64,000 nucleotides of DNA, taken from positions 1,302,001 through 1,366,000 of the forward strand of contig CP014214.1 in the NCBI GenBank assembly GCA_001560915.1, given 5' to 3'. The first letter of the stretch is position 1; the number at the start of each line of letters is the position of its first letter. A program made the position numbers and the translations under genes. Shown here in pieces: positions 22,472-49,114 of the stretch. Source of the stretch: a methanogenic archaeon ISO4-H5. GTDB taxonomy: Archaea; Thermoplasmatota; Thermoplasmata; Methanomassiliicoccales; Methanomethylophilaceae. Below the pieces are notes generated by a model. The model saw only the letters and a list, made by a program, of their open reading frames with translations. It was not told where the DNA came from and made no database searches.

Positions 22472-22618
22472 TCACCTCGCGATGTGCTCCCTGAGGTTCT
22501 GCAGGTCCTCCTCGGTGTAATGACCTACACTTGGTATCACTGGCCTCTTCCCATAATTCCTGGGAACACAATAGGCCGCGAATTCAATAGGAACTCCCGG
22601 AGGAAACGACTGTCTCAC
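22472..22618 (-). CDS. 48-residue ORF between the radical SAM and MATE genes
   Basis: A GTG-initiated frame of 48 residues starts inside the last codons of the radical SAM gene (35-nt overlap) and ends with TGA five bases before the MATE ATG, overlapping its ribosome site. The product has a YCVPRNYG segment and a helical end (YTEEDLQNLREHIAR) that looks like real protein, unlike the same DNA in the MATE frame. It has no recognisable domain. The tight overlap on both sides suggests coupled translation, but no strong ribosome site precedes the GTG. Confidence 0.45.
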   Translation of the reverse strand: MRQSFPPGVPIEFAAYCVPRNYGKRPVIPSVGHYTEEDLQNLREHIAR

Positions 22619-23141
22619 CGTCTAAATCGATTTCAACAAAATCAGGACGAAGCTCAGTGAACCAATCATCGTCCGCATAACGGTTCGTGATGTTGATTAT
22701 CCTCTGATTGTTAGATCCCACCAGATTCCTGACAGTATCCCTGTTATCGATCTCGAATCTTCCATCGATGACTGTGTCAAGATGCCTGGTAAGGCTTTCG
22801 TCCAGTTCGGAGAAGAGCCGCCCTGTGAACATTATAACACCAAGACCCAGACTCTGCAATCCCTCTGCCAAAGCAGGGATCGAGGCCTGAAGAGTGGGCT
22901 CCCCGCCGATGAGGGTCACACCCTCGATGCCGTTCTCCTCTTTCGCGACTGACGCTATACGCAGAATCTCCGAGAGGCGGACGAGATGCCTGGGCTCAAG
23001 GGGCTGCAGTTCGGGATTGCAGCACCCTTTGCAGTTGAAATCGCATCCCTGGAACCATATCGCCATGCGTCTCCCGGGGCCCAAGGCCTCGGTGCGTGTC
23101 TTCACCGAGGCCACGTTGAAGAGGGGATCAGTCGTCGACAT
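22584..23141 (-). CDS. NrdG-like radical SAM activating protein
   Basis: The 185-residue protein has the cluster motif CDFNCKGC (Cys33, Cys37, Cys40) and the GGEPTLQ SAM-binding segment near 79-85. It is short and has the QGC...GC...NPE pattern of activases such as NrdG, which make glycyl radicals on partner enzymes. No glycyl-radical enzyme is in the window. It overlaps the end of the AAA+ gene by 14 nt, so it belongs to that operon. Being inside a helicase/HEPN/AAA+ operon makes a role other than ribonucleotide reductase activation likely. It is not viperin; that is at 42376-43206. Confidence 0.82.
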   Translation of the reverse strand: MSTTDPLFNVASVKTRTEALGPGRRMAIWFQGCDFNCKGCCNPELQPLEPRHLVRLSEILRIASVAKEENGIEGVTLIGGEPTLQASIPALAEGLQSLGLGVIMFTGRLFSELDESLTRHLDTVIDGRFEIDNRDTVRNLVGSNNQRIINITNRYADDDWFTELRPDFVEIDLDGETVVSSGSSY

Positions 23142-24945
23142 CGAACTCGAGCTTTCCTTCGTTCACATGGGCATAGACGGTGCATCCCCTGAATCTTGAG
23201 AGGTCCTCGTAGTTGGTGAACAGGTACAGTGCCAGATCGGTCAGGAGGCGGGAATTCAAAGCGTTCAGGACATCCCTTCCGCCTTTGGCTATGTCAGCAC
23301 CTTCCAGGATGTACTCATAGAAAGTCTGCTCATTGCGGATCTTGAGGGTGATGCCGTACTTCTCCTCCACGGCCTTCTGCACAGGCCTGAGCTTGGACTT
23401 CAGGATGTTCGTGGCGAAGGATGGATCGTCGATGAAGTTGAACGGGATGATGTTCTCGTATCCGATCCTTCCAAGGATCTCGGGCCTCTTCAGCTCGTTG
23501 TCGAAATAGTCCTTCACGATTCTGACGAACTCGGATGCCACGTGCTCCCTGTCGCCGTTGTTGACCACATCGGCTGCGCCGAGATTGGATGTGAAGATGA
23601 TGATGGTATCGGAGAAGTACGTGGTCACGCCGCGGTTGTCGGTCAGCCTTCCGTCCTCCAGGATCTGCAGGAAGATGTCCAGGATGCGGGGGTTGGGCTT
23701 GGCGGCCTTCTCGATCTCGTCGAACAGCACCACGCTGAACGGCTTCTCCCTGATGGCATTGGTAAGCTGACCGCCCTCCTCGAATCCCACGTATCCCGGA
23801 GGAGCACCGATGAGCTTCTGGTCGCTGTTCTGCTGGGAGTACTCGCTCATGTCGAACCTGATGCAGGCGTTCTCGTCACCGAACAGGAATGATGCGATGG
23901 CCTTGGATAGTTCGGTCTTTCCCACTCCGGTAGGTCCGACGAAGAAAAAGACCCCTTTGGGCATGGATCTTGACGAGGTCTTGTGGATGCCGGTGATCCC
24001 CATGAAAGCCTTCACGATGGTCTCATAGACATGGTCGATGGCCTGGTCCTGGCCGATTACCTTCTCCTTCAGCTCCTTCTTCATCCTGCGTACCTTGTCG
24101 GGGCTGAGCTTCTCCCAGGGATTGTCCTTCTCGCCGTACTTGAACAGGGCGAACAGCTTCTCGAAGGTTATCCTCTCCTTCTGCTGGCGGGACATGTTGG
24201 CCATCTGGATGATCTCGCGCCCCGTGAAATCGTTCAGCATATCCACGTAATCCTCGAACTTGGGGCTGTCTATGATGTCGTCCACGTCCTTGAGGAAGAA
24301 TCCGGGGGAGACCTTCCTCAGTATATCTCTCCTCTCCTCCATGTCCGGTTTGGTGATGGTCACGGTGTTGACCTCGGGGTTCCCCGAATACAGGGACAGG
24401 GGGAGCATTGAAGCCTTGGTCGAGATAAGGATTATTGCGCTTCCTCTCTCGTCACTGCGGTATCTGGGGAGGCTCTCCTTGAGGGTCTTTCCGAGCATGG
24501 TCAGCTGTTCGCGGTCCTGGGGATCCAGCTGCCCGTCCTTGTTGAAGAGGTACTCGGACCAATCGAGGATGAATGCTGTGTTGTCATTCTTCTCAGATAG
24601 GGTGCGGTGGATGACGGCCAGCATCTGACCGGGCTCGCGGGCCTGCCCGATGACAACAGTATCCGGGATCTCCACGTCACCCAGATCATAACTGTCGCCC
24701 TCCTCTGGCACATCCTTCTTGTCGGTCAGTTTCAGAGTACGGGTGTCCCCCTGGATACCTGAAATACGGTCCCAGGTGACGATGTTAGTGTACCCTATCT
24801 CCTCCAGGCACTGGCGGAGGCAATCCTTCAGCCCCAGCAGTTTCTTATCGACCAGATAGACATCGGAGACGTTGCCTTCGACGATGAGGCATTTCTTGAT
24901 CCCTGCCTCGCGCTTTATCCTGTTCAATGCGTTGATTATTGCCAA
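23128..24945 (-). CDS. ClpB-like AAA+ ATPase with a degenerate first ATPase domain
   Basis: The 605-residue protein has a first module (about 1-270) that looks like an AAA domain without a usable Walker A, then a complete HslU/Clp-type domain. This second domain has GPTGVGKT (about 337-344), pore loop GAPPGYVG, Walker B VVLFDEIEK (about 405), sensor 1 IIIFTSNLG and sensor 2 GGRDVLN. It lacks the Clp N domain and ClpB middle domain, so it is not a housekeeping disaggregase. It begins one base after the coiled-coil gene's stop. It likely remodels or unfolds a partner in this operon. Confidence 0.88.
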   Translation of the reverse strand: MAIINALNRIKREAGIKKCLIVEGNVSDVYLVDKKLLGLKDCLRQCLEEIGYTNIVTWDRISGIQGDTRTLKLTDKKDVPEEGDSYDLGDVEIPDTVVIGQAREPGQMLAVIHRTLSEKNDNTAFILDWSEYLFNKDGQLDPQDREQLTMLGKTLKESLPRYRSDERGSAIILISTKASMLPLSLYSGNPEVNTVTITKPDMEERRDILRKVSPGFFLKDVDDIIDSPKFEDYVDMLNDFTGREIIQMANMSRQQKERITFEKLFALFKYGEKDNPWEKLSPDKVRRMKKELKEKVIGQDQAIDHVYETIVKAFMGITGIHKTSSRSMPKGVFFFVGPTGVGKTELSKAIASFLFGDENACIRFDMSEYSQQNSDQKLIGAPPGYVGFEEGGQLTNAIREKPFSVVLFDEIEKAAKPNPRILDIFLQILEDGRLTDNRGVTTYFSDTIIIFTSNLGAADVVNNGDREHVASEFVRIVKDYFDNELKRPEILGRIGYENIIPFNFIDDPSFATNILKSKLRPVQKAVEEKYGITLKIRNEQTFYEYILEGADIAKGGRDVLNALNSRLLTDLALYLFTNYEDLSRFRGCTVYAHVNEGKLEFDVDD

Positions 24946-24946
24946 A

Positions 24947-25966
24947 TCAGTGACCTCCCTGTGTCCTCATTTCCTGATGATGCTTGTTCTGGAGACGGTC
25001 CGGGTTCTCCCAGAGGGTCTTCCTTGCTGTTAGTTTGATTCCGTAGACCTCCTCCAGGTCTCTTTCGAGCGGGGAGATGTCCTTCTCGCAGGCCTTTCCC
25101 TCATAACCTTGGAAATGGTACACGAACTTACCGTCAAGATCGATGCGGAACTCCGCCACCTGCCCAGCGGGTTTCCTTGCGGTTATCTTCACGGTATCTC
25201 CTTCTTCATTCTTCAAATGGCGTATGTCCGACCTCTCCACGATGAAGCCCCTGGCGGTGATGCTCTTGACGATGGCCTGTACGGCGGATCTCCTCAGTCT
25301 CTCGTCGAGAATCTCCGAGGTAGCACGGTCCTTCAGCTCCAGGGGACTTACGGCCTTGCCGTCGCCCATCGCATCGCGGATGACCTCGGGAGAGATTTTC
25401 TCCGATTTCATCTCGGATTCGATGGATGAGACCGTATCTTTGATGAGTTTGCGCCTGACCTTCTTGGAGGGGTCGATAATGGACTCGGCCAGCTCTTTCA
25501 GCTCTTCGTTGGACAGAGCGTCGTGCGCCTTGTTCCTCGATATTAGCTCCACCACACTGCGCAGCTGGGGGTCCCCAATGCTGGAGAGATATTCTTCGAA
25601 CCCTTCGCGGAGACCGCGTTCCGACATCTTTGCATCGAATGCGGCTCTGACTGCCGAGTTAAGGGCTTCGGATTGCAGGACGACCCTGTTGACCTGCGTG
25701 AGGAACTGGCGTGTCCTGTCAATCTCCTCCCGGTAGGCGGTTGTTCCGATGCTGCCGCGACGTTCCGCAATGGATGCGGATGTGGAGGCACAGCTTTTCA
25801 TGAGGTCGGATATCCTCTCGCGAAGAGCTGCATCGAGGATGCGGGAGGAGTTCCTCTGGACTGCCTCGGTGTCAGCGATGATGTCCGCCAGACGCCTGTC
25901 GGCCTCGTCAAGCATCTGGTTGCACGCCTGGGCATACTCCAGCGTGGCCTGTTCCATATGGCTCAT
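24947..25966 (-). CDS. Coiled-coil protein of unknown function in the helicase/AAA+ operon
   Basis: The 339-residue protein is mostly helical with heptad-like charged stretches (about 1-230). A small alpha/beta C-terminal region (about 235-330; ITARGFIVERSDIRH, FRIDLDGKFVYHFQGYEG) follows. No known motif or membrane segment is visible. The ATG overlaps the stop of the HEPN gene (ATGA) and has GGAGG seven bases upstream. It lies between the HEPN protein and the AAA+ ATPase, so it may connect the two; this is inference. Confidence 0.75.
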   Translation of the reverse strand: MSHMEQATLEYAQACNQMLDEADRRLADIIADTEAVQRNSSRILDAALRERISDLMKSCASTSASIAERRGSIGTTAYREEIDRTRQFLTQVNRVVLQSEALNSAVRAAFDAKMSERGLREGFEEYLSSIGDPQLRSVVELISRNKAHDALSNEELKELAESIIDPSKKVRRKLIKDTVSSIESEMKSEKISPEVIRDAMGDGKAVSPLELKDRATSEILDERLRRSAVQAIVKSITARGFIVERSDIRHLKNEEGDTVKITARKPAGQVAEFRIDLDGKFVYHFQGYEGKACEKDISPLERDLEEVYGIKLTARKTLWENPDRLQNKHHQEMRTQGGH

Positions 25967-28044
25967 CTGGAGCCCTCCTTGGAAGGTGCGGGCTTTAGAT
26001 TATCCACGGTAGCCATCCACATCTTGCGGGTCTTTCTGTTCACCGAGGGGATTACTGGGTCATGTGCGCATTTGTTCCTGAAGTGTCTTATCTCCTCCAG
26101 CGTCTTGTAATCCTGGTCGGAAATCAGGCCACGCTCGTGGCTATTGGTGATCATATCCACCAGGTCCTGCGCCTCCACCAGGGTCTTGAGAGCCTCTTCG
26201 AGGGTTATGCCGAGGGTTATGCCGAATATCCTGTCGGGGGCGTTCTCTTGAACCTTGACCTGGACCATACTCTTCAGAACGGAAGCAATATCGGCGGAGA
26301 TATCAACGTAGAACTCCACTTCGCGGAACCTGTCTGCACCACGGATGAATGGTGCCGCAGCCTCCAGATCCCTGCGCATTGCCGGCCCGCGGCTCATGAC
26401 AATCTCCCTGTCCTCTTCGGATATTCCGTCGATATCCATCTCCATCGAGGAGGGGGATTTGATTCTCAGAATAGCCTTCATCGTCTGGATGTTCTGCGAG
26501 AGGTTGGACGCTGCCGCGAAGGGTTTGGATACAAAACTTCCGCAGGTGCCATCGAGGATGTCGTTCGTGAGCTGATCCTTGATATCAAGTGCCTTCACCA
26601 TCGGAGCAGGGTTCCTCACGTTGGGGTACAGTGCCTCGGCCACCAGGAGGTTACTGCGGGCATCCCCGGTCTTCATGCTCTCCGTCAGGATGTTTCCTGT
26701 TACGACGGTCTTGGTCTCGGCAAGGATGGATGCAGCCTCCTTAGGCCCCAGTCTTCTGCCTGCGATGACCTCCTCGATGACGTCCGGTAGCTCCGCGTAC
26801 CATCTCATCTTGCGGTATTCCTGAAGTGCCAGTATGTCAGCGCGTATGTCGGAGGAAGCGGTCAGATACCTCTTCACCAATTCGAGAATGTCTTCGGAAT
26901 CGTCCGTTATAGACATGATTCCCAGAGCCTTCTTGAATCCCGAATAAGTCGTGATGTCCACCTCTCCCACTGCCTGTTTGACGATCTCCTTTATACGGCC
27001 CTCATCGATGCTTCTGCGTACCATCAGGTTGCAGTTGCCCGTACCCTCGAACCCGCTGACCGGCACATCTCTGTTGACCAGACAGTACTCATACCCGAGT
27101 TTTGAGGTCTCTATTGCCAGGATATCGCATCCCTGGTCCCCTCTGAGAGTGTCGTACTTCTGGGAGGTGATGAATTCTCCCCCGACCATGACCAGCCTGG
27201 ACTTCTGGACATTCACCTCCGATGGGAGATGGGCTGAATAGCGGTCCCATTCCGGCATATCCGCGCGGACGTCTTGGAAGGTTAGCCCGGAGTCGGCCGA
27301 TCTGTATGCTCCACCATCTATGAGGTCCACGAGGTCCTCGGATGTGAACCTGCCCTTGAGGAAACTCTCGTCGAGGTCGCCGGGATTCAGAGAGAACGTT
27401 CCTGTCACCTGGTCGAAGTTGAGGGATATGTCCTTCGAATAGCAGCTCATCTGCATGTCCGCATCGATGTTGACGTCGAAGATGTCGGCATCCTTAGGTA
27501 CAGCGAAGTCACCCTTGTCCATGATTAGTGCATTCTCTATCCTCTGATCATCGGGTTGGATGTCCCTGAAAAGGTCTGCATGGAATCCATCGGGACTGCA
27601 GCGAGTTATCCTCTCATCTTTTAGATATTTCTTATTCGCCTGTGCTGGCACATATGCCATGATGCCGCGGATCTCCTCGATTTTGTCCGCGATTACACCC
27701 TTATCGAATGCCTGTCTGCCTGCAGTGGTGAACTCAGCATCCGAAACAGGATTATCGATATCGGGATCCTGGCGGAGCGTTATCATCTGGGAATCCGCGC
27801 CGCCTGGGCCCCAGCACATATTCTCGAGGGCGGGCCGATATACCTGGTTGAAGACTATCTCCGGGATTCCGTAGATGTCCATCACCTCCCTCCAGGTCTT
27901 GTCCCTGAGCGATTTCATGCCGATGGTGGTGAGGAGCATGTACTCGACACCGGTAGGCTTCCTTACCACGCTGTACTTTGCGCTGAACCCTTTCGAAACT
28001 ACGGGCAATTTGAGTTTGATTGTCAGTCTGGCCGTTTCACTCAC
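25963..28044 (-). CDS. Large protein with C-terminal HEPN-like domain
   Basis: The 693-residue protein has an N-terminal part of unknown fold (about 1-350), a helical middle and a C-terminal helical domain with RNKCAH (about 656-661), the Rx4H motif of HEPN ribonucleases in its usual IRHFRNKCAHD setting. A 12-bp tandem duplication (GAGGGTTATGCC twice, 26198-26221) gives GITLGITL in this domain. The start is a GTG overlapping the helicase stop by 8 nt. HEPN domains often cut RNA in defence and stress systems; cleavage by this protein is inferred from one motif. Confidence 0.75.
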   Translation of the reverse strand: MSETARLTIKLKLPVVSKGFSAKYSVVRKPTGVEYMLLTTIGMKSLRDKTWREVMDIYGIPEIVFNQVYRPALENMCWGPGGADSQMITLRQDPDIDNPVSDAEFTTAGRQAFDKGVIADKIEEIRGIMAYVPAQANKKYLKDERITRCSPDGFHADLFRDIQPDDQRIENALIMDKGDFAVPKDADIFDVNIDADMQMSCYSKDISLNFDQVTGTFSLNPGDLDESFLKGRFTSEDLVDLIDGGAYRSADSGLTFQDVRADMPEWDRYSAHLPSEVNVQKSRLVMVGGEFITSQKYDTLRGDQGCDILAIETSKLGYEYCLVNRDVPVSGFEGTGNCNLMVRRSIDEGRIKEIVKQAVGEVDITTYSGFKKALGIMSITDDSEDILELVKRYLTASSDIRADILALQEYRKMRWYAELPDVIEEVIAGRRLGPKEAASILAETKTVVTGNILTESMKTGDARSNLLVAEALYPNVRNPAPMVKALDIKDQLTNDILDGTCGSFVSKPFAAASNLSQNIQTMKAILRIKSPSSMEMDIDGISEEDREIVMSRGPAMRRDLEAAAPFIRGADRFREVEFYVDISADIASVLKSMVQVKVQENAPDRIFGITLGITLEEALKTLVEAQDLVDMITNSHERGLISDQDYKTLEEIRHFRNKCAHDPVIPSVNRKTRKMWMATVDNLKPAPSKEGSR

Positions 28045-31000
28045 CTCCTGTGATTGTGTCCTCGGTCAGGATTCCGTTCTTCCGCTCTATGGTGCTTATC
28101 ATGTTCCTGTAGATTGGTAGCTTCCTGCCAGCTCCCTTCTCTGCACCTATATCGTCATCCATAGGCACCAGCATTGGCTCTAGGGCACTCCTGTTACCGA
28201 CGATGATCAGAAGACGCCTGGCCCTGCTGATGGCCACATTGATACGGTGGTAGTTCATGAGGAACCGGGCCTTGGAAGTCGTCCTCACCATCGACAGGAT
28301 GATGATGTCACGCTCGTCCCCCTGGAAATCATCCACCGTCTTGACCATGAACTTCTCATCGCCGCTGTCGTTGAAGGAACGATACTTCTGGACCTTCTTG
28401 CCGCGGATGCGCTTCGCCTGATCTGCGTAGGGGCAGATGACTCCCACGCTGAGCCTCGTATCGTGGCGCCTGTCTACATCCCCGGTCAGGGGTTTTCCGT
28501 TGCGGTCGCATCTGCACCCCCTGTTGATCAGTTCGAGGAGTTTCCTGACCACTTCTATCTCGTTCTCATTGTAGAACGAGGTACTACCGGACTCCTGCAC
28601 CTCTTTGCCTTTGCAGTCCACGAATACGACGTGGGTGTCTTCGCCGATTATCTTCCTGCCGTAAGCACCCGTTATGTTGAGATAGTGCTCGCGGGCCTTG
28701 GCATTGATTCCTGCCTTCAGTTGATTGTCATAGAATACGTTGTCCACGTCCATGATGTCCGGATGCATGCGGTATTGCACATCTAGCATGATCTTGTTGC
28801 GGGGTGAGGTCTCATGGAACAGCTTGGCGAAGAAGCTGGTCTCATACTCCTTCTTATAGCGCTTCTCATCCCCAGGATTGATCCATTGGGGATCGTATTT
28901 GCCCTTCTCCATCTCATCCTCGGATATCCTCTCGGTGAACATGGGCGGGAGCTGCTTATGGTCCCCCACTAGGATTACGGTCTTACCGTAGAGGATGGGG
29001 TGGAGCAACTCCACGAACGGGATCTTGCTCACCTCATCAATGATGACCACATCGATGTTGAGTTCGTTCAGACGAATCTTCTCCTCATCGCTTTCGAAAC
29101 GGTCATTCGTAGTGCAGGTCATGCCGAATACGTTCACCGTCCGCAGGAGTTCGCTCTTATATTGGTCGCGGTCGTTGTCGATGACCTGCTCGTCCCGCAG
29201 ATACTTAATGATCCTCTTGTAGGCATCCACCCTGTCGTCCAATCCTTCGCGGTTGTTCCTGTACTCCCTCTCCAGGTTGTCGCGGACATTCATGAGCTTG
29301 TCGATGACCTCCGCGGGACTGCTATAGGTTATGGTGAGGTTCAGCCTGGCCAGGACATCCTTCACCAGGGTCTCGAATTCCGACTGGGCTTTCTCCAGGG
29401 AACGGTAGGCTCCGTCTGTGCGCGCGTCCTCGATTTCGTTCTTGATCCTTGTGATCTGCGACTGTATAATTTCCAGTTTGGTGGGATCGATTTTGCGTTC
29501 CAGATCGTCCACGAATTTCCTGTAGCGCCTCTCCTCCTCGTCGAGTATCGAATCGATGAGTCCTTTGGCCTCCAGGACCTTGTCCTGCGGAGGGACAGGG
29601 TTCAACTTCCTGAGGATGCGGAACGTCTCCTCCTCATCCAGGTCGTTATAGGAGAGGTACTTCTCGATTTCGGAGTTGATGCTTGCAATCTCCGATGCAG
29701 ATGCAATCTCCTTCCTGGCCCGGAGATCGAACAGTTTCTGATGGAACTCCATCTCGATGAACTCGTTCTCCAGTTCCGCCGAATCGGTCGAGCGGAGGAG
29801 CCTTATCATCTTGATTGGCTCCATTCCGTATGATGAGGCATCGAAACCTATACCTTGGAGCTCATCGAGTATCCTTCCGATGATCTTTTCATCGTCGATG
29901 TCGAGTATCCTCGACAATTCCTCCTCCTTCTCCATTATCTTATTGCGGTAGGTGTCGTTGTTGGTCTCCAGCTTATCCTTCTTGTTATATTCAGAATCCA
30001 GATTGCGCTGAAGATCCAGGATTCTCTCCTTCACGGCCTCGGTCTCCACTGAATACCTGTCGATTCTATGTGCCAGATCCTCGAGCTTCTCTATGCTCTC
30101 CGAGAGGTCGGACATATACTGCTGATGGTCCGTGTACTTACGAAGCTCCTTCTCTAGACTCATGGTGATGTTGTTGTAGAAGTTATCGAGCAGCCTTGCC
30201 ATGGAGTAGGGATTCTCCTTAGCTCTCGAGTCCTCGGTAAGGATGCGCATAGGGCGTATGGTAGGCATCTTGGGCAATCTGCTGAATGCGTTGTCGACAG
30301 CCTTGTGATTCTCGCTGGCGATCAGGACCTTCCTCCCAGATACTGCTAGCTGGGCGGTGATTTCCGCGATAACCTGCGTCTTCCCGGTACCTGGCGGCCC
30401 CTGGAGGAGGAACACACCATTGGCGGACAGCGCCTTTACAACCGCTTCTTTCTGTTTGTTGTTCAGGTTTTCGGTGAAGTACTTCATCGAATCGATGTCT
30501 AAGGCTGTGTCCTTCACTTTCCCGTCCGGGCTGAGCAGTGCTGTGGCCAGGAAGGGATTCATGACATATCCTTCCAACAGGGAATTCAGTGCCCTGCTCT
30601 GTCTGTCGATGAGCACCCAATCCCCGGTGAAATCCTTGCGGAGCAGCAATTCGGGTTTCATCCGGGGTGCAAGCCGCTTTATGATTTGCTCTGGGCTGTC
30701 TGTGTCTGGAATATCGAGTTCATAGTACACATGGAGCCTCAGCTCTGTATGATCTCTCCTTGCCGTTTCCACGCGTGCATCGAAGTCCCGGTCGATTTCG
30801 TTGATAGCGTTTACCCTCTTCTCGGCGTAAGGCCCTCCCAGTTCCGATTCAATATCCTCGCGCTTTGATAACGTCATGCGGGATATGAACTCCTCTCTGA
30901 TCCTACCCAGTTCTCTCTCGATATCTTTGCCGGGATCGAATCTTGCCTCGGCCGACTGATACTCCGTGCGGAGTTTATCGATGGTCTCGGAACGATTCTC

Positions 31001-32500
31001 AGAGTCGGCGACCAGTTTGGAGAGCCTGCTCTTCAGATCATTCTCCTTTTCGCGACAGGAACGCAACTTAGCCTGTGCCGCAGATATGTCCTTCTTCGGT
31101 ACCTCCCCCTCAGAATCTTTCAGTCTTTCGAGCACGGCCTCCGCTTGAGAACTCTCTTTTGCTGCGAGGTCCGATTCGTTCCTGCGTGCGGCTATCAGCC
31201 CCTCGGCAGACTTGATCTCCTCTTCGAGAGCTTTTATCGCATTCGATATCCTGGCCCGCTCTTCTTCGATTCTCTTCTTGGCCTGGAGCTCATTCCTCCT
31301 GGTAACAGGGCTCCTCTGTGCCTCTACTTCCGCCTCGGCGAGCCCGGGGAGCTCTGTCGCGACGAAACTGTCGAGCCTGAGCTTTACTTCCTTACGCCTG
31401 GCCTCCTCGATATCCCTCTCGGCCTTCGCCTTGGTCCTGTTACGGGCATCCTCCAGCGCCCTGAGTTCCTCCTCGGGGGGAACGTCCTCTGCTTTGGATG
31501 GCGCGATGCGGCCGTCACGAATCTGCACGAGCTGATTCTTCCTCCGATCCTTATCGACGGGGATGGCAGGATCTACCAGAACATTGGGGGCCTTGGTGAA
31601 GGAGTCGAATTTCTTCTTGACATCGATCTTCGTAGACTCCTTGAGCTCTTCTGCCTCTTTCTTGTTGAATGAGATGTAGAGGTGCAGGAGGACGGATTCC
31701 CTCGCAGTAGGATATCTTGAAATGTCGGGTTTATCCATGACCCAGATAACCCCATTGCGACCGGTATCGAGATACTGTACCGGTTTCATTTCTTCCTGAT
31801 TGATTGTCCCCTCGACGCAGTATGCCCTGATGACATCGGGTACGCAATCTCTCAGGTCATAGCCCTTCGTCGACTCCGTATCGATGAGATACTTCCTCGA
31901 CTCCAGGTACTTCTCCCAGATTTCGAATGTCTTTTCCGCAGCCTCGGGATCCTTCACGACGTAGGATCCATTGAGATCGAGCATGAAGTCATCGGTCAGC
32001 GTGCTGTAGCGTTTCTGCTCGTCCGTGGGCCAGTCGGTGAACGACCCGTTGCATTGCCACCGGCCGCGGGGTTCGATCTGAAGGACGGGGGTGCAGTCGG
32101 TGACCTCAATCTCCACCGAATCGGGAATGGTTTTGGGATCCACGGTCAGGATTGCCTTGACCTTGAACTGCCGGTGGGAATCCCTGTCCCTCTCGAAGAT
32201 GTCCCCCATCAGGACTATGTCGGTCTTGCCGTACTTCTGAGGGAACCTTACTGCCACATTGCGGTAATACTGCCCCCTGGCCTTCTCCACCGTCTGTTTC
32301 TCTCTGACAAAATTCGGATAGGAGAAATACACGGTCTGCTCAGTTACCGCGAAATGGATGAGGAGGAAGTCCTCGAAAGACTGGTTCTTGAAATTCGCCG
32401 AGAGGATGGAGAACTGGTCCTCCAGACCTGTGGAGAAGACCGTGTTCCTCACCCCCTCGTACCGATTCGAGCCGAAATCCAGGCATAGATAGTTAGTCAT
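28037..32500 (-). CDS. Upf1-like superfamily 1 helicase with long coiled-coil insertions
   Basis: The 1487-residue protein has a novel N-terminal region (about 1-300), a coiled coil (about 310-560), then the SF1 core: GPPGTGKT near 700, a second long coiled coil inserted between motifs I and II (about 750-1090), DEVSK near 1155, GDHKQLPP, YRMHP, TVDDFQGDERDIIILS and INVAISRARR. This is the AAA_11/AAA_12 (Upf1/Dna2-type) set. Start at 32500 is chosen for a GGAG site nine bases upstream; upstream codons extend into the spacer after the MazF-like gene. It probably unwinds or translocates on RNA or DNA as the motor of this operon. Confidence 0.88.
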   Translation of the reverse strand: MTNYLCLDFGSNRYEGVRNTVFSTGLEDQFSILSANFKNQSFEDFLLIHFAVTEQTVYFSYPNFVREKQTVEKARGQYYRNVAVRFPQKYGKTDIVLMGDIFERDRDSHRQFKVKAILTVDPKTIPDSVEIEVTDCTPVLQIEPRGRWQCNGSFTDWPTDEQKRYSTLTDDFMLDLNGSYVVKDPEAAEKTFEIWEKYLESRKYLIDTESTKGYDLRDCVPDVIRAYCVEGTINQEEMKPVQYLDTGRNGVIWVMDKPDISRYPTARESVLLHLYISFNKKEAEELKESTKIDVKKKFDSFTKAPNVLVDPAIPVDKDRRKNQLVQIRDGRIAPSKAEDVPPEEELRALEDARNRTKAKAERDIEEARRKEVKLRLDSFVATELPGLAEAEVEAQRSPVTRRNELQAKKRIEEERARISNAIKALEEEIKSAEGLIAARRNESDLAAKESSQAEAVLERLKDSEGEVPKKDISAAQAKLRSCREKENDLKSRLSKLVADSENRSETIDKLRTEYQSAEARFDPGKDIERELGRIREEFISRMTLSKREDIESELGGPYAEKRVNAINEIDRDFDARVETARRDHTELRLHVYYELDIPDTDSPEQIIKRLAPRMKPELLLRKDFTGDWVLIDRQSRALNSLLEGYVMNPFLATALLSPDGKVKDTALDIDSMKYFTENLNNKQKEAVVKALSANGVFLLQGPPGTGKTQVIAEITAQLAVSGRKVLIASENHKAVDNAFSRLPKMPTIRPMRILTEDSRAKENPYSMARLLDNFYNNITMSLEKELRKYTDHQQYMSDLSESIEKLEDLAHRIDRYSVETEAVKERILDLQRNLDSEYNKKDKLETNNDTYRNKIMEKEEELSRILDIDDEKIIGRILDELQGIGFDASSYGMEPIKMIRLLRSTDSAELENEFIEMEFHQKLFDLRARKEIASASEIASINSEIEKYLSYNDLDEEETFRILRKLNPVPPQDKVLEAKGLIDSILDEEERRYRKFVDDLERKIDPTKLEIIQSQITRIKNEIEDARTDGAYRSLEKAQSEFETLVKDVLARLNLTITYSSPAEVIDKLMNVRDNLEREYRNNREGLDDRVDAYKRIIKYLRDEQVIDNDRDQYKSELLRTVNVFGMTCTTNDRFESDEEKIRLNELNIDVVIIDEVSKIPFVELLHPILYGKTVILVGDHKQLPPMFTERISEDEMEKGKYDPQWINPGDEKRYKKEYETSFFAKLFHETSPRNKIMLDVQYRMHPDIMDVDNVFYDNQLKAGINAKAREHYLNITGAYGRKIIGEDTHVVFVDCKGKEVQESGSTSFYNENEIEVVRKLLELINRGCRCDRNGKPLTGDVDRRHDTRLSVGVICPYADQAKRIRGKKVQKYRSFNDSGDEKFMVKTVDDFQGDERDIIILSMVRTTSKARFLMNYHRINVAISRARRLLIIVGNRSALEPMLVPMDDDIGAEKGAGRKLPIYRNMISTIERKNGILTEDTITGGE

Positions 32501-32540
32501 TGTAATTGCTCCGTTTGTTACTGTGAATTTTACGGCCTGT

Positions 32541-32876
32541 TCATGAGCAGACCCAGTCCTCATCCTCCGGGCTCAGATGGCCCAGGCACCTCTTGATCCG
32601 CCCGAGGGGAATCGTATGCTCCTCCATGTCCACGAAGGTCCTCTTCATGAGACCTGCTCCGAACGGGTCTGCAATCGCCCTCCTGTCCCGGACGGTCGAT
32701 TTCTGCGAGGTGCAGCTGCGGTATCTGACGAGTCCGTCTGAGTATCCCGTGACGACCACCGGCCTACTCTTGCAACCCGTGGCCCCGTCGAACGGGAGGT
32801 TCTCGGCCCAGCAGACATCGCCCCGCCTTACGGAAGAGACACGGCGATTGTACTTCCTCGTGTCCAGGTGGGTCAT
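32541..32876 (-). CDS. MazF/PemK-like (type II toxin fold) protein
   Basis: The 111-residue protein has the MazF/PemK core: RRGDVCWAENLPF, then GCKSRPVVVTGY, as in the RGD(I/V)W...RPV(L/V)V pattern of mRNA-interferase toxins. The C-terminal half (PFGAGLMKRTFVDM, IPLGRI) fits the remaining strands. Its ATG overlaps the TGA of a 71-residue gene upstream (ATGA), where an antitoxin would sit. The helicase gene follows after 40 nt. PemK-fold proteins also occur as nucleic-acid-binding parts of defence systems, so toxicity is not certain. Confidence 0.75.
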   Translation of the reverse strand: MTHLDTRKYNRRVSSVRRGDVCWAENLPFDGATGCKSRPVVVTGYSDGLVRYRSCTSQKSTVRDRRAIADPFGAGLMKRTFVDMEEHTIPLGRIKRCLGHLSPEDEDWVCS

Positions 32877-33088
32877 GAGACCACAATCCCGCTGACCGGG
32901 ATGAGAATCCCGTGATTTTCATGATGAACCGCTGTGTGACCCGTTGCGTAACGGTACTCCCGCCTGCCTTCGTGTCCGCCTTCGAATGTTCTACATCCGG
33001 GGATGAGTTCCACCGGATGTCCCGCCCCCGCCAAAACCGGGGACACAATCCTATGAGCCCTGCGGCCCATTACACAAATGTTCACCAT
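32873..33088 (-). CDS. 71-residue protein, first gene of the helicase operon (possible antitoxin position)
   Basis: The small protein is rich in His, Arg and Gly (GRRAHRIVSP, GHTAVHHENHG). I recognise no domain. It is supported by position: its stop overlaps the MazF-like start (ATGA), and its ATG lies about 48 nt downstream of the predicted transcription start. A longer frame to 33169 exists but begins upstream of that transcription start. It could be an antitoxin, but antitoxins usually have an acidic or DNA-binding N terminus, which is not seen. Confidence 0.55.
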   Translation of the reverse strand: MVNICVMGRRAHRIVSPVLAGAGHPVELIPGCRTFEGGHEGRREYRYATGHTAVHHENHGILIPVSGIVVS

Positions 33089-33333
33089 GTAATCACGTCC
33101 TGTTCCCCGCCCATCTGAGGCAGGGTGTCTTTCGACGGTTACATATCGTTTAACCTGATATATAAACATTCATTTGGTTGTAATTATTCACCATTTTCAT
33201 CACTTTTCTATTTTTTAACAAAAATAATTTTTTTATAATACAATATATTTTTTTGTAATTAAACAAAATACTTTTCAAATAAAATAATTTCTTTTAGAGT
33301 AAAAATAAATATTTAGAATTAAGATACTCACGC
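33089..33333. promoter_or_regulatory. Divergent AT-rich promoter region between helicase operon and CARF regulator
   Basis: On the minus strand TTTATATA (33159-33166) is the likely TATA box of the MazF-like/helicase operon. On the plus strand AATAAATATTTAGAATT near 33304-33320 fits the CARF gene, which would have a very short leader. Between them, 33180-33300 is almost pure A/T runs, far more AT-rich than other spacers in the window. The CARF-wHTH protein may bind here. Confidence 0.6.
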
Positions 33334-34014
33334 ATGGTACAGCATGTTCACATCTGCCCTGTCGGATTCTATCCTGAACCGATACTCGCAGCAGTCGGGG
33401 CCCTGCCCGCAGACAAATACTATTTCCTATACAATGAGCACGAGGAGAGCCTCAAATGCTTGGAAGCGGTGAAGACGGCCCTGGCGGCAATCGGGCAGAA
33501 CAACAACATGGAGATGGATATCGACCCGTTCGATTACAGCGCGGTCGTCGGAACCCTCATGAAGATTCACCATGAGGAGAGACATCAGGACCCCGATACC
33601 CATTTCTACATCAATTTCACCAACGGCACCAACATCGTCGCGGGAGCGTGCTGCAGCGTATCGTACTTCATCGGTGCCACGCTGTACTATGTGATGCGTG
33701 ACGAGCCTGGATCGAATCTTTCAAAGACAGAACGTGTGAGGATTATTAAGACGCCGCGCATCCCGGACATAGAGAAGATGAAACCATTCGCAAAGGACAT
33801 CCTATCCAAGATTTGCGAATCGAAACTGGGGATAGAGATGCAGGCGTTATCCCTGTACATGCAATCTTCGCCGCAAAAACTCAACCACCACATCAACTCA
33901 TTCATCAGCAGCGGGCTGGTGGAGAAAACCAAGGACGGACGCAAGGTCGTTCTCGTGGCCACGGAGCAGGGAAAACTCCTATACTCGTGGATTGCAGAGG
34001 ATGCGGGATTCTGA
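33334..34014 (+). CDS. CARF-domain winged-helix regulator (Csa3 / DUF6293-like), copy 1
   Basis: The 226-residue protein has a Rossmann-like N-terminal domain (HVHICPVGFYPEPIL start, and NFTNGTN near 93, the CARF ligand-loop signature) and a C-terminal winged helix (about 145-226). CARF domains bind cyclic oligonucleotides or related signals in type III CRISPR and other defence loci. No CRISPR array or Cas gene is in the window. It is divergent from the MazF-like/helicase operon and may control it. A paralogue lies at 39591-40292. Confidence 0.82.
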   Translation: MVQHVHICPVGFYPEPILAAVGALPADKYYFLYNEHEESLKCLEAVKTALAAIGQNNNMEMDIDPFDYSAVVGTLMKIHHEERHQDPDTHFYINFTNGTNIVAGACCSVSYFIGATLYYVMRDEPGSNLSKTERVRIIKTPRIPDIEKMKPFAKDILSKICESKLGIEMQALSLYMQSSPQKLNHHINSFISSGLVEKTKDGRKVVLVATEQGKLLYSWIAEDAGF

Positions 34015-34309: not shown

Positions 34310-35092
34310 GTGCAGACCGCTACGGCAGTGCCGTCGCAGGCACCTGTCCAGAGAGGCCCGCCCCAGATCAAGAGGACTGAGCCCGTTACCCAGAAGTTCG
34401 AGGTAGAGAGGACCGGTCCCGACACCATCCGCAGCCCCTCATTCACCGACAACCGCTACTTCGTCCACATCAGCCCCGGCTACAAACTGCTGGTGATCAG
34501 GCCTAACGAGGACGGCAAAGTGAAAATCTCCAACTCACTAGCGCCTATAAACGAATTCATGAAAACCGTTTTTCCAGAATACGATTTTTCTGAAGAAATA
34601 AAACCATATTCTTTCAAGAAACCATGTAATTTCGATGAAAACTACTACGTAATGTTAGTTGACCGCGATCAAAAGTCATTCGGAAAAAAGAATGTCGAAG
34701 AGGTCCGCTCGGATTGTTCCAAACTCGGATACAAACTCATCCTTACATCCCCCTATTTTGAACTCTGGCTCACACTTCACTTTGAAAAATATGAGAAGGA
34801 AAAACTGCTGGAGTTTGTAAAGGAAGAAGTCCAGTTGATATACGAACAAGGGATTCCGAGATCCAATATAGGGAGGTCCCTAGGACCAAAAAGATATATG
34901 GAGCTGCTCAAACCGGGATACACGAAGAACGGAACCTTCGAGTGGGTCAAGCGTTCCGACATAAATCGTGCACTCGCAAATTCCGAAGATCTTTGCACAA
35001 ACCTAGATATGCTTGTACAAGAACTCCATTCCAATGACCTGTCATCAGTCGGTACGAACATAAAGGAACTGTTCGACTTACTGAAGGAATAA
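34310..35092 (+). CDS. RloB-like domain fused to a duplicated accessory segment
   Basis: The 260-residue protein starts with a Pro-rich linker and a 58-residue segment (residues 14-71) nearly the same as residues in the protein at 35347-36333. From about residue 72 it is RloB-like, with VMLVDRDQKSFG and TSPYFELWLTLHF (RloB consensus SNPCFELWLLLHF). RloB occurs in restriction/abortive-infection loci and is probably a nuclease or nucleotide-acting enzyme. Base composition changes at about 34525, from GC-rich to AT-rich. The start is a GTG without a clear ribosome site, and a stop lies 13 codons upstream, so the coiled-coil part of the donor gene is missing. It may be a working fusion or a recombination product. 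Confidence 0.65.
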   Translation: MQTATAVPSQAPVQRGPPQIKRTEPVTQKFEVERTGPDTIRSPSFTDNRYFVHISPGYKLLVIRPNEDGKVKISNSLAPINEFMKTVFPEYDFSEEIKPYSFKKPCNFDENYYVMLVDRDQKSFGKKNVEEVRSDCSKLGYKLILTSPYFELWLTLHFEKYEKEKLLEFVKEEVQLIYEQGIPRSNIGRSLGPKRYMELLKPGYTKNGTFEWVKRSDINRALANSEDLCTNLDMLVQELHSNDLSSVGTNIKELFDLLKE

Positions 35093-35346: not shown

Positions 35347-36333
35347 TCATAACCTTACGAGCATTCCCTCATACAATTCGCTGTACTCCGCGACGAGGAA
35401 CTTGGGGGTGTTGGTGAATCCCGAAACCAGTCCGAGATCTTTCAGACGGATAATCTTGTTGATGCAGTACACATTGCCGTCCTCGTTGGGACGGATGACC
35501 AGCAGTTTGTAATCAGGACTGATGTGCACGAAATAGCGGTTATCCGTGAACGAGGGGCTGCGGAGGGAATCCTCTCCAATACGCTCCACCTCGAACTTCT
35601 GAGTAACCGGTTCTGCCCTCTTGATCTGAGGCGGTCCCCTCTGGGGATAGGGTGCGGGTTGGATTCCGGAGGAGATCTGAGGAGGCTGCATTTCAGTATC
35701 CGACGAGGAATGGGTTACGTATTCGTTCCCCGCAGGAGCTGCGACGGTCCCAGCGGGACTGTCGTCGGACCTCAGCGTTATGTAATCATCCGCGGCAACG
35801 GCCACCGGGTTGCGCTGGGTCTCCAGCTGAAACCTGGTCTGGCGGAGTTCGTTCTCCAGCTCATCCTTCTCCTTGTTTATGCGTTCCAGACTGTCCTGGT
35901 AATCCGCCTTGAGCTCCTCTGCGATCTTGTTCTGGAGTTCGGCCTTTATCCTGTTCTCGTAGTACGCCTTGATGTCGTTGCCGTGCTTCCTCCAGATGGT
36001 ACCCAGCACGTTCTCCCTAAGCTGTTCGTTGAAATTGAGTATGTCATTGAGGGTTATCTTGAAGAGGGGGGTGGCATAGGAGCAGTTGTAACCAGGGGCC
36101 AGCGTACAGATCCAGGTATCGCCGATAGCCACTTCGTATTGGAAGTCACGATCCACGAATACAATGCAGCCGTTGTTCGTCTGGGAGACAATGGTCGTCC
36201 CCTTGTTGTCGAGTCTGAACGTCAGGATGTGGAGTTTCTTCGAATATCCTTCCACCATATCTTCCGCCTCATCCTCTCCATCGAACCTCTGGCTGGCCTG
36301 CCAGTCGATGAGATCCATCTTCTGGTCACTCAT
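35347..36333 (-). CDS. Coiled-coil protein with shared C-terminal beta domain
   Basis: The 328-residue protein has a beta-rich N-terminal part (about 1-100), a coiled coil (about 105-175), a Pro/Ser-rich linker and a C-terminal domain of about 80 residues (FTDNRYFVHISP, YKLLVIRPNEDG). The C-terminal segment also forms the N terminus of the RloB fusion and is similar in pattern to the end of the protein at 36971-37936. No known family is recognised. The ATG lies within the stop region of the NYN RNase gene (8-nt overlap) with GGAGG 11 bases upstream. It is cotranscribed with that RNase. Confidence 0.7.
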   Translation of the reverse strand: MSDQKMDLIDWQASQRFDGEDEAEDMVEGYSKKLHILTFRLDNKGTTIVSQTNNGCIVFVDRDFQYEVAIGDTWICTLAPGYNCSYATPLFKITLNDILNFNEQLRENVLGTIWRKHGNDIKAYYENRIKAELQNKIAEELKADYQDSLERINKEKDELENELRQTRFQLETQRNPVAVAADDYITLRSDDSPAGTVAAPAGNEYVTHSSSDTEMQPPQISSGIQPAPYPQRGPPQIKRAEPVTQKFEVERIGEDSLRSPSFTDNRYFVHISPDYKLLVIRPNEDGNVYCINKIIRLKDLGLVSGFTNTPKFLVAEYSELYEGMLVRL

Positions 36334-36889
36334 GGTACGGCACACCTCCGTCGAGAGGGGGGCTGGACATCGCGATGAACGGGATCTCCTTGAGTTTGTG
36401 GTAGACGTCGGCGGTCATCGTGAGTTCCCTATCGTTGGATAAAAATTCCTCATAGGATGCAACTTCCACCCTCTTTCCTGCGGCCTGGACCTTCTGGATC
36501 ACAGGGATATAATCTCTGTCACCGCTGACCACAATCGCCACATCGTAATGGTTCATGAGAGCATGTTCCATCATCTCCACAGCCAGGGAGACGTCGACCT
36601 CCTTCTGCTCGTAATGGTCCTTTCTCCAAACCATGGCTTCCCGGGTGATCAGACGGAATCCGATGGAACGGAGCTTGTTGAGTGCGTTCTGCTCCTCTTG
36701 CTTCCTGTCCTCGCCGGCAATCTTACCATCGAAGATATACGCACCTACGAGATCCCTGTTCCCCACGAGTATCTGGGTCAGTCTGAAGATGTCGGCTACC
36801 ATCGCTCCGTCGTTGTATTTCGACATTAGGTTGCGATAATCGATGAAGACCATCACGCGACTGTAGCTGCGGTCTACGAACAGGGACAT
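36326..36889 (-). CDS. NYN-domain (LabA/DUF88-like) ribonuclease
   Basis: The 187-residue protein is a NYN domain, a PIN-like nuclease. Acidic site residues are visible: Asp17 in FIDYRN, Asp99 in KEVDVSLAVEMM, and Asp124/Asp126 in VVSGDRDYIPV. It should bind Mg and cut RNA. TATTATAC on the minus strand near 36910 gives a leaderless or nearly leaderless start. It is divergent from the coiled-coil gene at 36971 and overlaps the coiled-coil gene downstream. A HEPN, RloB and CARF-rich setting suggests RNA degradation in defence. Confidence 0.88.
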   Translation of the reverse strand: MSLFVDRSYSRVMVFIDYRNLMSKYNDGAMVADIFRLTQILVGNRDLVGAYIFDGKIAGEDRKQEEQNALNKLRSIGFRLITREAMVWRKDHYEQKEVDVSLAVEMMEHALMNHYDVAIVVSGDRDYIPVIQKVQAAGKRVEVASYEEFLSNDRELTMTADVYHKLKEIPFIAMSSPPLDGGVPYHE

Positions 36890-39590: not shown

Positions 39591-40292
39591 ATGATGCATG
39601 TCCATATCGCCTACGCGGGAAAAGTTCCGGACCCCACTCTGAATACAATCAAAGCAGTACCGGATGCCATCGACAGGGTAGTTCTGCTTTACAGCGTAAC
39701 GGACGATGGTGTTTTCGAACGTACCGCAGAGGAACTATCGGGCAAATTGGGAAATATGGGATACCTCTGTGAATCCAGAATCATCAACTCCTTCGATTTC
39801 CTGAATATCGTGGACACGATCTATGATGTTTTCGAGGAATACAAGAAACAGGATCGTAATGTAAAATTTTCCGTGGACATAACCAACGGAACTAATCTCA
39901 CTGCAGCGGCTGCATGTAATACGGCATTCTTCATGAATTCCGACGTTTATTACATGGGAGATAAACGCAGATTCCCCGAGAAATCATTAAGTGAACTCCT
40001 GATCGCCATCCCCTCTCCGAAAATCCCGGATGTGAAACGTCTGGGCGATTTATCTCTAGATATGCTGAGGTTCATCGCCGAGGAACAGGATCTCGGTCAC
40101 GAGGTATGCAACGTGGATGTCGCCAGGAAATTCGATATGTCCCCTCAGGCGATTATGTATCACATAAACAGACTCAGGGACGCAGGGGTCATCGATTTGG
40201 AAGATGCCTATACTCCCAAAGGAAAGATCGATAAACGCAGGAAAGCGATAAAGATCAGGCGTGAGGGAAGATTCGTCCTCAGATGGACTTGA
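39591..40292 (+). CDS. CARF-domain winged-helix regulator (Csa3 / DUF6293-like), copy 2
   Basis: The 233-residue protein matches copy 1 (33334-34014) in layout: N-terminal Rossmann-like CARF domain (MHVHIAYAG start, DITNGTN near 98) and C-terminal wHTH with SPQAIMYHINRLRDAG, ending in a basic segment. GTTATATCAT about 25 nt upstream gives a nearly leaderless start. It precedes the kinase and viperin genes and may regulate them. Two such sensors in 7 kb without CRISPR suggest a nucleotide signal from another source; this is inference. Confidence 0.82.
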   Translation: MMHVHIAYAGKVPDPTLNTIKAVPDAIDRVVLLYSVTDDGVFERTAEELSGKLGNMGYLCESRIINSFDFLNIVDTIYDVFEEYKKQDRNVKFSVDITNGTNLTAAAACNTAFFMNSDVYYMGDKRRFPEKSLSELLIAIPSPKIPDVKRLGDLSLDMLRFIAEEQDLGHEVCNVDVARKFDMSPQAIMYHINRLRDAGVIDLEDAYTPKGKIDKRRKAIKIRREGRFVLRWT

Positions 40293-42324: not shown

Positions 42325-42420
42325 TTTTTATTATCAAAGAATTTTGCTTTATAATCTGAACACCAAATACCTATCATGAACACAGAAACTACCTCAGTCA
42401 GGAAATTCAGGTCCGCAAAC
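42325..42420 (+). repeat. Promoter plus 15-codon leader shared with the kinase gene (copy B)
   Basis: Second copy of the block at 40384-40479, ending in codon 15 of the viperin gene. TTTATAAT at 42348-42355 is the TATA box, 28 nt before the ATG, as in copy A. Confidence 0.8.
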
Positions 42421-43206
42421 ATCCACATCTACGGAAAATGCAACTACCGCTGCGAGCACTGTTTCGACAGGTGCCTCACCAAGAACTACATGAGGCCGTC
42501 CGACTGGGTTGACACCCTGACCTTCCTGAAGGAATACGGGGTGGAGAAGATCAACCTGGCCGGCGGGGAACCCACCCTCTATCCCTTCCTGGACCAGATG
42601 TGCTACCTGGTCAAGGGCATGGGCTTCAAGCTCTCCATCGTCAGCAACGGCTCCCTCATCACCGAGGACTGGATGGCTAGGATGGAGGGAGTCGTCGACT
42701 GGATCGGTCTCTCCATCGACTCCATCGATGAGGCGGACGAGATCCAGATCGGAAGGGGCAGGGGAGGCCACCTGGAGAACATCGTACAGGTCGCCGATAT
42801 GGCCCACCGGCACGGCATCAAGGTAAAGCTCAACATCACCGTGGTTAGGAGGAGTTGGATGAAGGACTTCAGACCCTTCATCGAGAAGGTTAGGCCAGAA
42901 CGCGTCAAGTGCTTCAGGGCCCTCACCCTGAAGAACGCAAACGACGACGTCCCCGACACCTGGTCCATCACAGACAAACAGTTCGAAGACTTCAGGCGCA
43001 GGCACGAGGACATCGGCTGCATCGTCTTCGAGGACAACGAGGACATGGTCTCCTCCTACGTGATGTTCGACCCCATGGGCAGATGGATGGTCGACAGCGG
43101 GTACGAGAAGAGGTTCATCTCCTTCGAGGTCCTCAGGAGGGAAGGGCTCGACCGGGAAGTGGATGTCGAGAAGTACTTCGGCCGCAACGCCGTCTACGAA
43201 TGGTGA
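42376..43206 (+). CDS. Prokaryotic viperin (pVip), radical SAM antiviral enzyme
   Basis: The 276-residue protein has the viperin pattern: CNYRCEHCF (Cys22, Cys26, Cys29 for the 4Fe-4S cluster), LAGGEPTLYP, LSIVSNGSLI, a NITVV segment, and the viperin C-terminal part (CFRALTLKNAN, RRHEDIGCIVFEDNEDM, SSYVMFDPMGRW) that separates viperins from MoaA-type proteins. Viperins convert CTP, GTP or UTP to 3'-deoxy-3',4'-didehydro nucleotides that stop viral RNA polymerases. The base used here cannot be read. Two P-loop kinase genes flank it, a common pVip setting. The first 15 residues match the leader of the upstream kinase. Confidence 0.9.
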   Translation: MNTETTSVRKFRSANIHIYGKCNYRCEHCFDRCLTKNYMRPSDWVDTLTFLKEYGVEKINLAGGEPTLYPFLDQMCYLVKGMGFKLSIVSNGSLITEDWMARMEGVVDWIGLSIDSIDEADEIQIGRGRGGHLENIVQVADMAHRHGIKVKLNITVVRRSWMKDFRPFIEKVRPERVKCFRALTLKNANDDVPDTWSITDKQFEDFRRRHEDIGCIVFEDNEDMVSSYVMFDPMGRWMVDSGYEKRFISFEVLRREGLDREVDVEKYFGRNAVYEW

Positions 43207-48911: not shown

Positions 48912-49041
48912 AGACCGTTACAACATTTTCCCCGCGGGGGCCTTCCCCCGCAATGACTTTTGAAAGACCCAGAACGTCATGAATCGTATCAAGCGAAACG
49001 AAAACAATGGCTCCGCCCACCCAATAGAAATGAAAAATGAG

Positions 49042-49114
49042 TGCAACCGCCGGGATTCGAACCCGGGTGGCAAGCTTGGAAGGCTTGAATCCTAACCAGC
49101 TAGATTACAGTTGC
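49042..49114 (-). tRNA. tRNA-Gly (anticodon TCC)
   Basis: The minus strand folds as a 73-nt tRNA: acceptor GCAACTG with CGGTTGC, D arm ATCT/GGAT, anticodon stem CAAGC/GCTTG with loop CTTCCAA (anticodon TCC, reading GGA), four-base variable loop, and T arm CCGGG TTCGAAT CCCGG. Discriminator base A. CCA is not encoded. No intron. The 3' end faces the defence-rich region to the left; I saw no second copy of its 3' end there. Confidence 0.97.

Follow-up and report, generated by a model that had tools for sequence, protein, structure and literature searches.

The window considered here is a stretch of 64,000 nucleotides (nt) from the archaeon ISO4-H5, positions 1,302,001 to 1,366,000 of a complete 1.94 Mb genome, and the host can be called a methanogen because its genome encodes McrA. 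Five genes follow one another on the minus strand, and inspection of the reading frames confirmed their order in the direction of transcription: a superfamily 1 (SF1) helicase, an effector or adaptor protein, a coiled-coil protein, an AAA+ protein, and a small radical S-adenosylmethionine (SAM) enzyme (Table 1). That these genes form a real and conserved five-gene system is well supported. The same order is found in 46 complete loci, the window included, and chance is thereby excluded.

Table 1. Features of the five-gene locus and its surroundings, numbered from the first nucleotide of the window
Feature	Position	Strand	Remarks
SF1 (UPF1/SMUBP2-like) helicase	28037-32563	-	1508 amino acids as called; 1487 from a likelier ATG at 32500
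Effector/adaptor protein	25963-28044	-	693 amino acids; constant N-terminus, variable C-terminal ribonuclease module (HEPN here)
HEPN catalytic motif RNKCAH	26062-26079	-	effector residues 656-661
Coiled-coil protein (gene 3)	24947-25966	-	339 amino acids; DUF2997-like C-terminal end
DUF2997-like C-terminal domain	24998-25345	-	residues 208-323; invariant Cys293, codon 25088-25090
AAA+ protein	23128-24945	-	605 amino acids; ClpB-D2-type C-terminal ATPase
NrdG-like small radical SAM enzyme	22584-23141	-	185 amino acids; CX3CX2C at residues 33-40
MazF-like open reading frame	32541-32876	-	label given by eye; accessory, outside the conserved system
Leading small open reading frame	32873-33088	-	71 amino acids; starts at 33088; not conserved; overlaps the MazF-like frame by 4 nt
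TATA-like box TTTATATAT	33158-33166	-	candidate operon promoter; AT-rich spacer
CARF winged helix-turn-helix (wHTH) protein	33334-34014	+	divergent from the operon; PADLOC CARF3, 135 bits; HFX_2341_N
Weakly AbiLii-like protein	34310-35092	+	29 bits
Second, related CARF-wHTH protein	39591-40292	+
Viperin-like radical SAM gene	42376-43206	+	PADLOC pVip, 234 bits; antiviral nucleotide-modifying family
PLD + helicase + DUF3427 protein	45287-48109	+	705 bits to a type IV restriction model
tRNA-Gly	49041-49114		downstream of the PLD-helicase-DUF3427 gene

An earlier note on this DNA had described an operon of seven genes behind one TATA box. Its frames, gene order and junctions hold for the five genes (8, 4, -1 and 14 nt from helicase to radical SAM enzyme), as does the overlap between the two small open reading frames (ORFs) in front of them, and inspection of the sequence bore out a TATA-like box upstream of the leading ORF. 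The two leading ORFs themselves have no homologues in any of the other 52 loci, so the system consists of five genes and not seven. The note had also counted a MazF-like, toxin-fold protein among the components. This ORF found no match in Pfam, NCBIfam, PADLOC or the Protein Data Bank (PDB), the PemK and MazF models included, and with no homologue in the 52 loci it was rejected as a part of the system.

The distribution of the system was followed through 84,980 species genomes, using a pattern from the linker segment of the AAA+ protein (alignment A3) and local profiles. Because the patterns were built from bacterial members, further archaeal copies may have escaped them, and the distribution given here is a minimum. 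There are 44 complete bacterial loci with the same five genes in the same order and on the same strand, five of them on plasmids, and eight further loci hold part of the set, the contig or the stored stretch ending there. By record title, the complete loci belong to alpha-, beta- and gammaproteobacteria, Microbacterium, Treponema, Brachyspira, Fibrobacter, Lentisphaerae, Synergistales, and Helicobacter. These represent at least seven bacterial phyla, and the partial loci raise the number, adding Thermogutta, Cloacimonadota, and Myxococcales. One further clear archaeal member, a full operon in the same order, was retrieved by a gene-3 profile search of 390 genomes from the window's own phylum. 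Across the 44 complete loci, the pairwise distance matrices of the five genes correlate with r=0.89-0.98, compared to a maximum of 0.38 over 500 permutations, which means that the genes travel together.

Plasmids tell the same story. In tblastn searches, the plasmid records retrieved with the helicase were those retrieved with the AAA+ protein, and the sole matches to gene 3 were loci of the five-gene system. The five plasmid loci with the window's exact order come from Photobacterium, Moellerella, Polaromonas, Acinetobacter, and Leisingera, where the genes are annotated as a helicase, a PIN-domain protein, a hypothetical coiled coil, an AAA ATPase, and a 4Fe-4S single-cluster protein; in RefSeq-derived plasmid records, all five proteins carry generic names. 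The effector as query retrieved nothing from plasmids or phages, its sequence being too divergent, and in E. coli the AAA+ and radical SAM query gave generic ClpB matches only. Viral contigs held no helicase relatives in a single-protein scan and none of the AAA+ protein with the specific alignment A3; the laxer alignment A2 retrieved distant AAA+ relatives from them.

Signs of movement accompany this distribution. Some of the carrier plasmids are conjugative, and integrases and transposases are found among the genes flanking the bacterial loci. The AAA+ protein of a Lentisphaerae copy, from a metagenome-assembled genome, is 96% identical to a Pseudomonas copy, which indicates either transfer or an error in binning that genome. 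When the site was compared with genomes of the same genus, the two flanks of the window's operon were not adjacent there. Two of the 44 complete loci carry broken reading frames, L111 (Helicobacter suis) in the helicase and AAA+ genes and L120 (Citreicella) in the helicase gene, and relatives of both have intact copies.

The first gene codes for a large SF1 helicase, as the earlier note had it. It matches the Pfam families AAA_12 (7e-45) and AAA_11 (9e-33), and its nearest solved structures in the PDB are SMUBP-2, SEN1, and UPF1. Its N-terminal region is large, and long coiled coils are inserted in the protein. Its orthologues are the first operon gene in the other complete loci, and the Walker A motif is present in all 44 of the bacterial ones.

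The effector is the fastest evolving of the five proteins, with a mean identity of 24% compared to 54% for the AAA+ protein. Its N-terminus is conserved, with P14, R28, and E34 nearly invariant (alignment A4), and is modelled as a beta hairpin and a winged-helix-like region, with a predicted local distance difference test (pLDDT) score of about 80-93 across much of residues 11-240. The C-terminus is exchanged between lineages, being a PIN_4 domain in most bacteria and HEPN in both archaea. PIN_4 scores 28-79 bits in the bacterial effectors of three loci (cut-off 21.9), and the active-site acids are conserved in the alignment. These acids are also kept when the bacterial PIN profile is matched to the PIN domain of SMG6/EST1A (E 4e-14). 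In the archaea, the HEPN call of the earlier note stands on its motif and falls short on the family models. RNKCAH is there, and the second archaeal effector has RNHFTH, so that an Rx4-6H motif is present in both; the window's effector stays below the HEPN-family cut-offs (DUF4145 at 19.8 bits vs 23.1, HepT-like at 15.3 vs 23.5), and the structure model is poor in this part. The exchange of the nuclease is an observation that goes beyond the earlier note, and so is the DUF2997-like end of the protein encoded by the third gene.

This third protein is a coiled coil with a small domain at its end. The last 115 residues or so are modelled as an alpha-beta4-alpha domain with a pLDDT of about 86-96 over residues 221-300, and among its invariant positions in 28-32 sequences are Y288, C293, D296, W319, N321, and P322, along with a glycine. 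Pfam DUF2997 reaches E=0.004 and 17.4 bits here, which is below its cut-off of 24.1 and still the best DUF2997 place in the genome. In the other direction, a profile of the domain matches a true DUF2997 protein of Brachyspira with 20.8 bits and the cysteine aligned.

The AAA+ protein matches Pfam AAA_2 (7e-49), and the ClpB model matches with 249 bits, restricted to residues 283-578. This C-terminal ATPase carries a GYVG pore loop, and its D2 Walker A and B motifs and sensors 1 and 2 are present in 44 of the 44 complete loci. The earlier note had proposed a ClpB-like protein with a dead first ATPase domain. The match to ClpB D2 agrees with this, and so does the N-terminal part of about 270 residues, in which none of the 44 homologues has a Walker A motif; that this part has an AAA fold is something that we infer. 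The radical SAM enzyme matches Fer4_12 (5e-25) and the Radical_SAM family and has the CX3CX2C and GGEP motifs in all 44 loci. The description of it as NrdG-like holds for the family and not for the equivalog, since it scores 74.8 bits and the NrdG cut-off is 126.1.

The radical SAM enzyme appears to be the hub of the last three genes because it adjoins either the AAA+ protein or the DUF2997 domain elsewhere. In other places, an AAA+ gene of this type is the direct neighbour of a radical SAM gene like the one here, with no DUF2997-like domain, and a Geminocystis plasmid carries such a domain close to members of the same two families, without the helicase and effector genes of this type. The enzyme may also modify the DUF2997-like domain. 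In Brachyspira (L165, 6905-8089), one operon encodes a DUF2997 protein, an NrdG-like radical SAM enzyme, and a small protein that by eye resembles DUF1257, and it sits downstream of several related lineage-specific proteins. On an Aristaeella lactis plasmid (L009), an AAA+ and a radical SAM protein of the same families stand beside a DUF4011 protein, kinases, an FHA protein, and a phosphatase; the module may serve another conflict system there.

The window is a defence island. As the earlier note had suggested looking for, the neighbours of the operon include viperin-like, restriction-like, CARF-wHTH, HEPN_LA2681, and NYN genes, and the two CARF-wHTH genes flank the HEPN_LA2681 gene, a coiled-coil gene, and the NYN gene. 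The CARF-wHTH protein that diverges from the operon is a possible regulator of it. The idea that this neighbour senses a type III CRISPR signal was weakened, as the genome has no match to a Cas10 palm domain and CARF homologues were not found beside the bacterial loci. The stretch PQIKRTEPVTQKFEVERTG...SPSFTDNRYFVHISP of the weakly AbiLii-like protein is nearly identical in an ORF on the minus strand (35347-36345), which points to a segment that was duplicated or inverted. At the second archaeal locus, the operon is followed by a STAND-like nucleoside triphosphatase (by eye), and the protein upstream, CARF-like by eye and without a PADLOC or Pfam match, was not counted. Genes adjoining the bacterial loci match DISARM DrmD, mad8, AbiD, Fic, and mREase_IV. 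Radical SAM genes are strikingly many among the proteins flanking the bacterial loci (11 of 116, with no background rate to set them against). At least three types of flanking radical SAM cassette recur, one with a JmjC_2-like gene, one with PHP, and a third family, and the flanks bearing such cassettes fall into three groups (L075, L076, L086, L093, L097, and L098; L088, L091, L096, L102, L104, and L119; L084, L094, and L099).

The five genes look like two modules, the helicase with the effector and the coiled-coil protein with the AAA+ and radical SAM proteins, because helicase-effector pairs occur alone in the same genome and in relatives of the genus. The paralogous pair in the archaeon's own genome (L003, 9471-15916; genome 849471-855916) is without the coiled-coil, AAA+, and radical SAM genes. 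Similar pairs are held by genomes of the same genus, where some of the effectors have 364-371 amino acids and no nuclease domain.

What such a system does can be proposed from its parts. An antiviral role of one kind or another, including one directed at DNA, is likely judging by the genes. With somewhat better than even odds, this is a horizontally moving conflict system, antiviral or directed at mobile elements, in which a helicase directs a ribonuclease (RNase) under the control of the AAA+ protein, the radical SAM enzyme, and the DUF2997-like domain. The effector would hold the UPF1-like helicase with its conserved N-terminal part, and the helicase would load on nucleic acid that is foreign or aberrant, RNA most likely, and translocate along it. 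Its movement would position or activate the C-terminal endoribonuclease of the effector (PIN in bacteria, HEPN in archaea), and the RNA would be cut. RNA is a plausible target. The coiled-coil protein would serve as the scaffold, and the radical SAM enzyme would bind or modify its DUF2997-like domain with the invariant cysteine. The ClpB-D2-type motor would pull on a component via its pore loop so that the complex is assembled, released, or reset. The action of the motor would mean that the RNase is armed under the right condition only. The roles given to the radical SAM enzyme and the motor are inferred, and the chemistry of the control module is a guess by analogy with the FtsH ternary systems (PMC7159879). 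A more specific version, in which an immune RNA-surveillance machine is built from parts of the nonsense-mediated-decay type and licensed by a radical-SAM-modified DUF2997 scaffold and a ClpB-type unfolding motor, can be put forward only tentatively.

Several observations weigh against a helicase-directed RNase of this kind. Two complete bacterial loci (L100 and L105) have neither PIN nor HEPN in the effector, and the incomplete locus L107 has no nuclease domain in it either; given the two complete loci, the RNase may be optional. The link of the coiled-coil protein to DUF2997 is statistically modest, and Foldseek gave zero matches at E<=0.001 with the models of the coiled-coil protein and the effector. 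Defence genes recognised by PADLOC are present beside the bacterial loci and are not dense there, with no background rate for comparison. Finally, the two-gene form of helicase and effector in the archaeal genus also fits a housekeeping role.

This last point, seen in several genomes of the genus, leads to the alternative of a host machine for RNA quality control or stress, in which stalled or damaged RNAs would be removed by the helicase and RNase. The radical SAM enzyme, being sensitive to oxygen, would tie this clearance to the redox or anaerobic state, and the location in an island would be incidental. UPF1- and SMG6-type parts do carry out RNA surveillance in eukaryotes. However, housekeeping genes are seldom so scattered, seldom ride on plasmids or pass from one phylum to another, and seldom swap a nuclease module, and no copy of the coiled-coil protein was present in the sampled genomes of the same genus and the same family, so we consider this alternative unlikely.

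DNA could be what the system recognises instead, with the helicase acting on invading or replicating DNA and the effector RNase cutting host RNAs such as transfer RNA (tRNA), and not the RNA of the invader, to bring about abortive infection. SMUBP-2-type SF1B helicases act on DNA too, and HEPN and PIN toxins often cleave tRNA or ribosomal RNA. The logic of a helicase as sensor and a nuclease as effector is established for Hachiman (PMC12278908). Family scans, on the other hand, matched no DNA-binding or deoxyribonuclease domain in the five proteins, and DNA targeting is given a low probability, like that of the quality-control machine. A system for competition or maintenance on plasmids or islands, working by addiction or by keeping out rival plasmids and not as antiviral immunity, would suit the plasmid copies, some of them conjugative, and the flanking integrases and transposases, but is quite improbable, as there is no conserved toxin/antitoxin pair and five genes with an ATP-driven motor are costly for addiction.

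If the conflict-system reading with its helicase-directed RNase is true, prokaryotic immunity has a new architecture, a helicase and an exchangeable RNase governed by an unfolding motor and a radical SAM enzyme, and DUF2997 with its radical SAM partner would gain a testable function. The earlier note knew of no described system with this set, and this has been upheld; the five genes are strictly found together in other genomes, and the set matches no named system. The system has no named model in PADLOC 2023 or NCBIfam 2026, and the papers found do not describe it, subscription papers and most preprints lying outside the search. The assembly is rated as new because no described system shares its gene set, and each of its parts comes from a known superfamily.

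Among known defence systems, Mokosh is close in its SF1 helicase core, and the MkoA models score 252-340 bits on the helicases of the window and the bacteria. Mokosh is defined by a helicase that comes with a nuclease domain, NERD or PLD, and in type I also by the partner MkoB (PMC10952713), whereas NERD, PLD, and MkoB are unmatched in the window and in the scanned bacterial proteins, where only the helicase core of MkoA and MkoC matches, and four additional conserved genes are found here. The likeness to PLuB (NCBIfam NF040671) is likewise limited to the helicase core, at 147-186 bits for the window and bacterial helicases compared to a curated cut-off of 999, which places the system outside PLuB. 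Hachiman shares the helicase-sensor and nuclease-effector logic (PMC12278908). HamA and HamB are, however, unmatched in PADLOC, the nucleases are different ones, and the present system has three additional conserved genes.

The control module has its own relatives. In the FtsH ternary conflict systems (Kaur et al. 2020, PMC7159879), an AAA+ protein that is inactive in its N-terminal part and has an active C-terminal ATPase occurs beside a radical SAM enzyme for which modification of a peptide partner has been proposed, and the present system is similar in having a radical SAM enzyme and an AAA+ protein without an N-terminal Walker A but with intact C-terminal ATPase motifs. It differs in that the AAA+ protein is of the ClpB-D2 and not the FtsH type, vWA and MoxR are unmatched in the five proteins, and a helicase and a PIN/HEPN protein are found instead. 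The DUF2997/DUF1257 (Ycf35-type) cassettes resemble it, as the Brachyspira case shows, in combining an NrdG-like radical SAM enzyme with a neighbouring DUF2997 whose cysteine aligns. In those cassettes DUF2997 is a small protein of its own, whereas in the helicase-RNase operon the DUF2997-like domain is joined to a long coiled coil.

The remaining comparison is with eukaryotic nonsense-mediated decay, which also employs a UPF1-family helicase and a PIN endonuclease, SMG6/EST1A being the nearest solved relative of the PIN domain described here. The present system differs in being an operon of prokaryotes, in including AAA+ and radical SAM proteins, and in showing no sign of coupling to translation. 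Nonsense-mediated decay has been proposed to have grown out of conflict systems (PMC5031192), and a UPF1-type helicase together with a SMG6-like PIN domain in one operon would make this origin testable.

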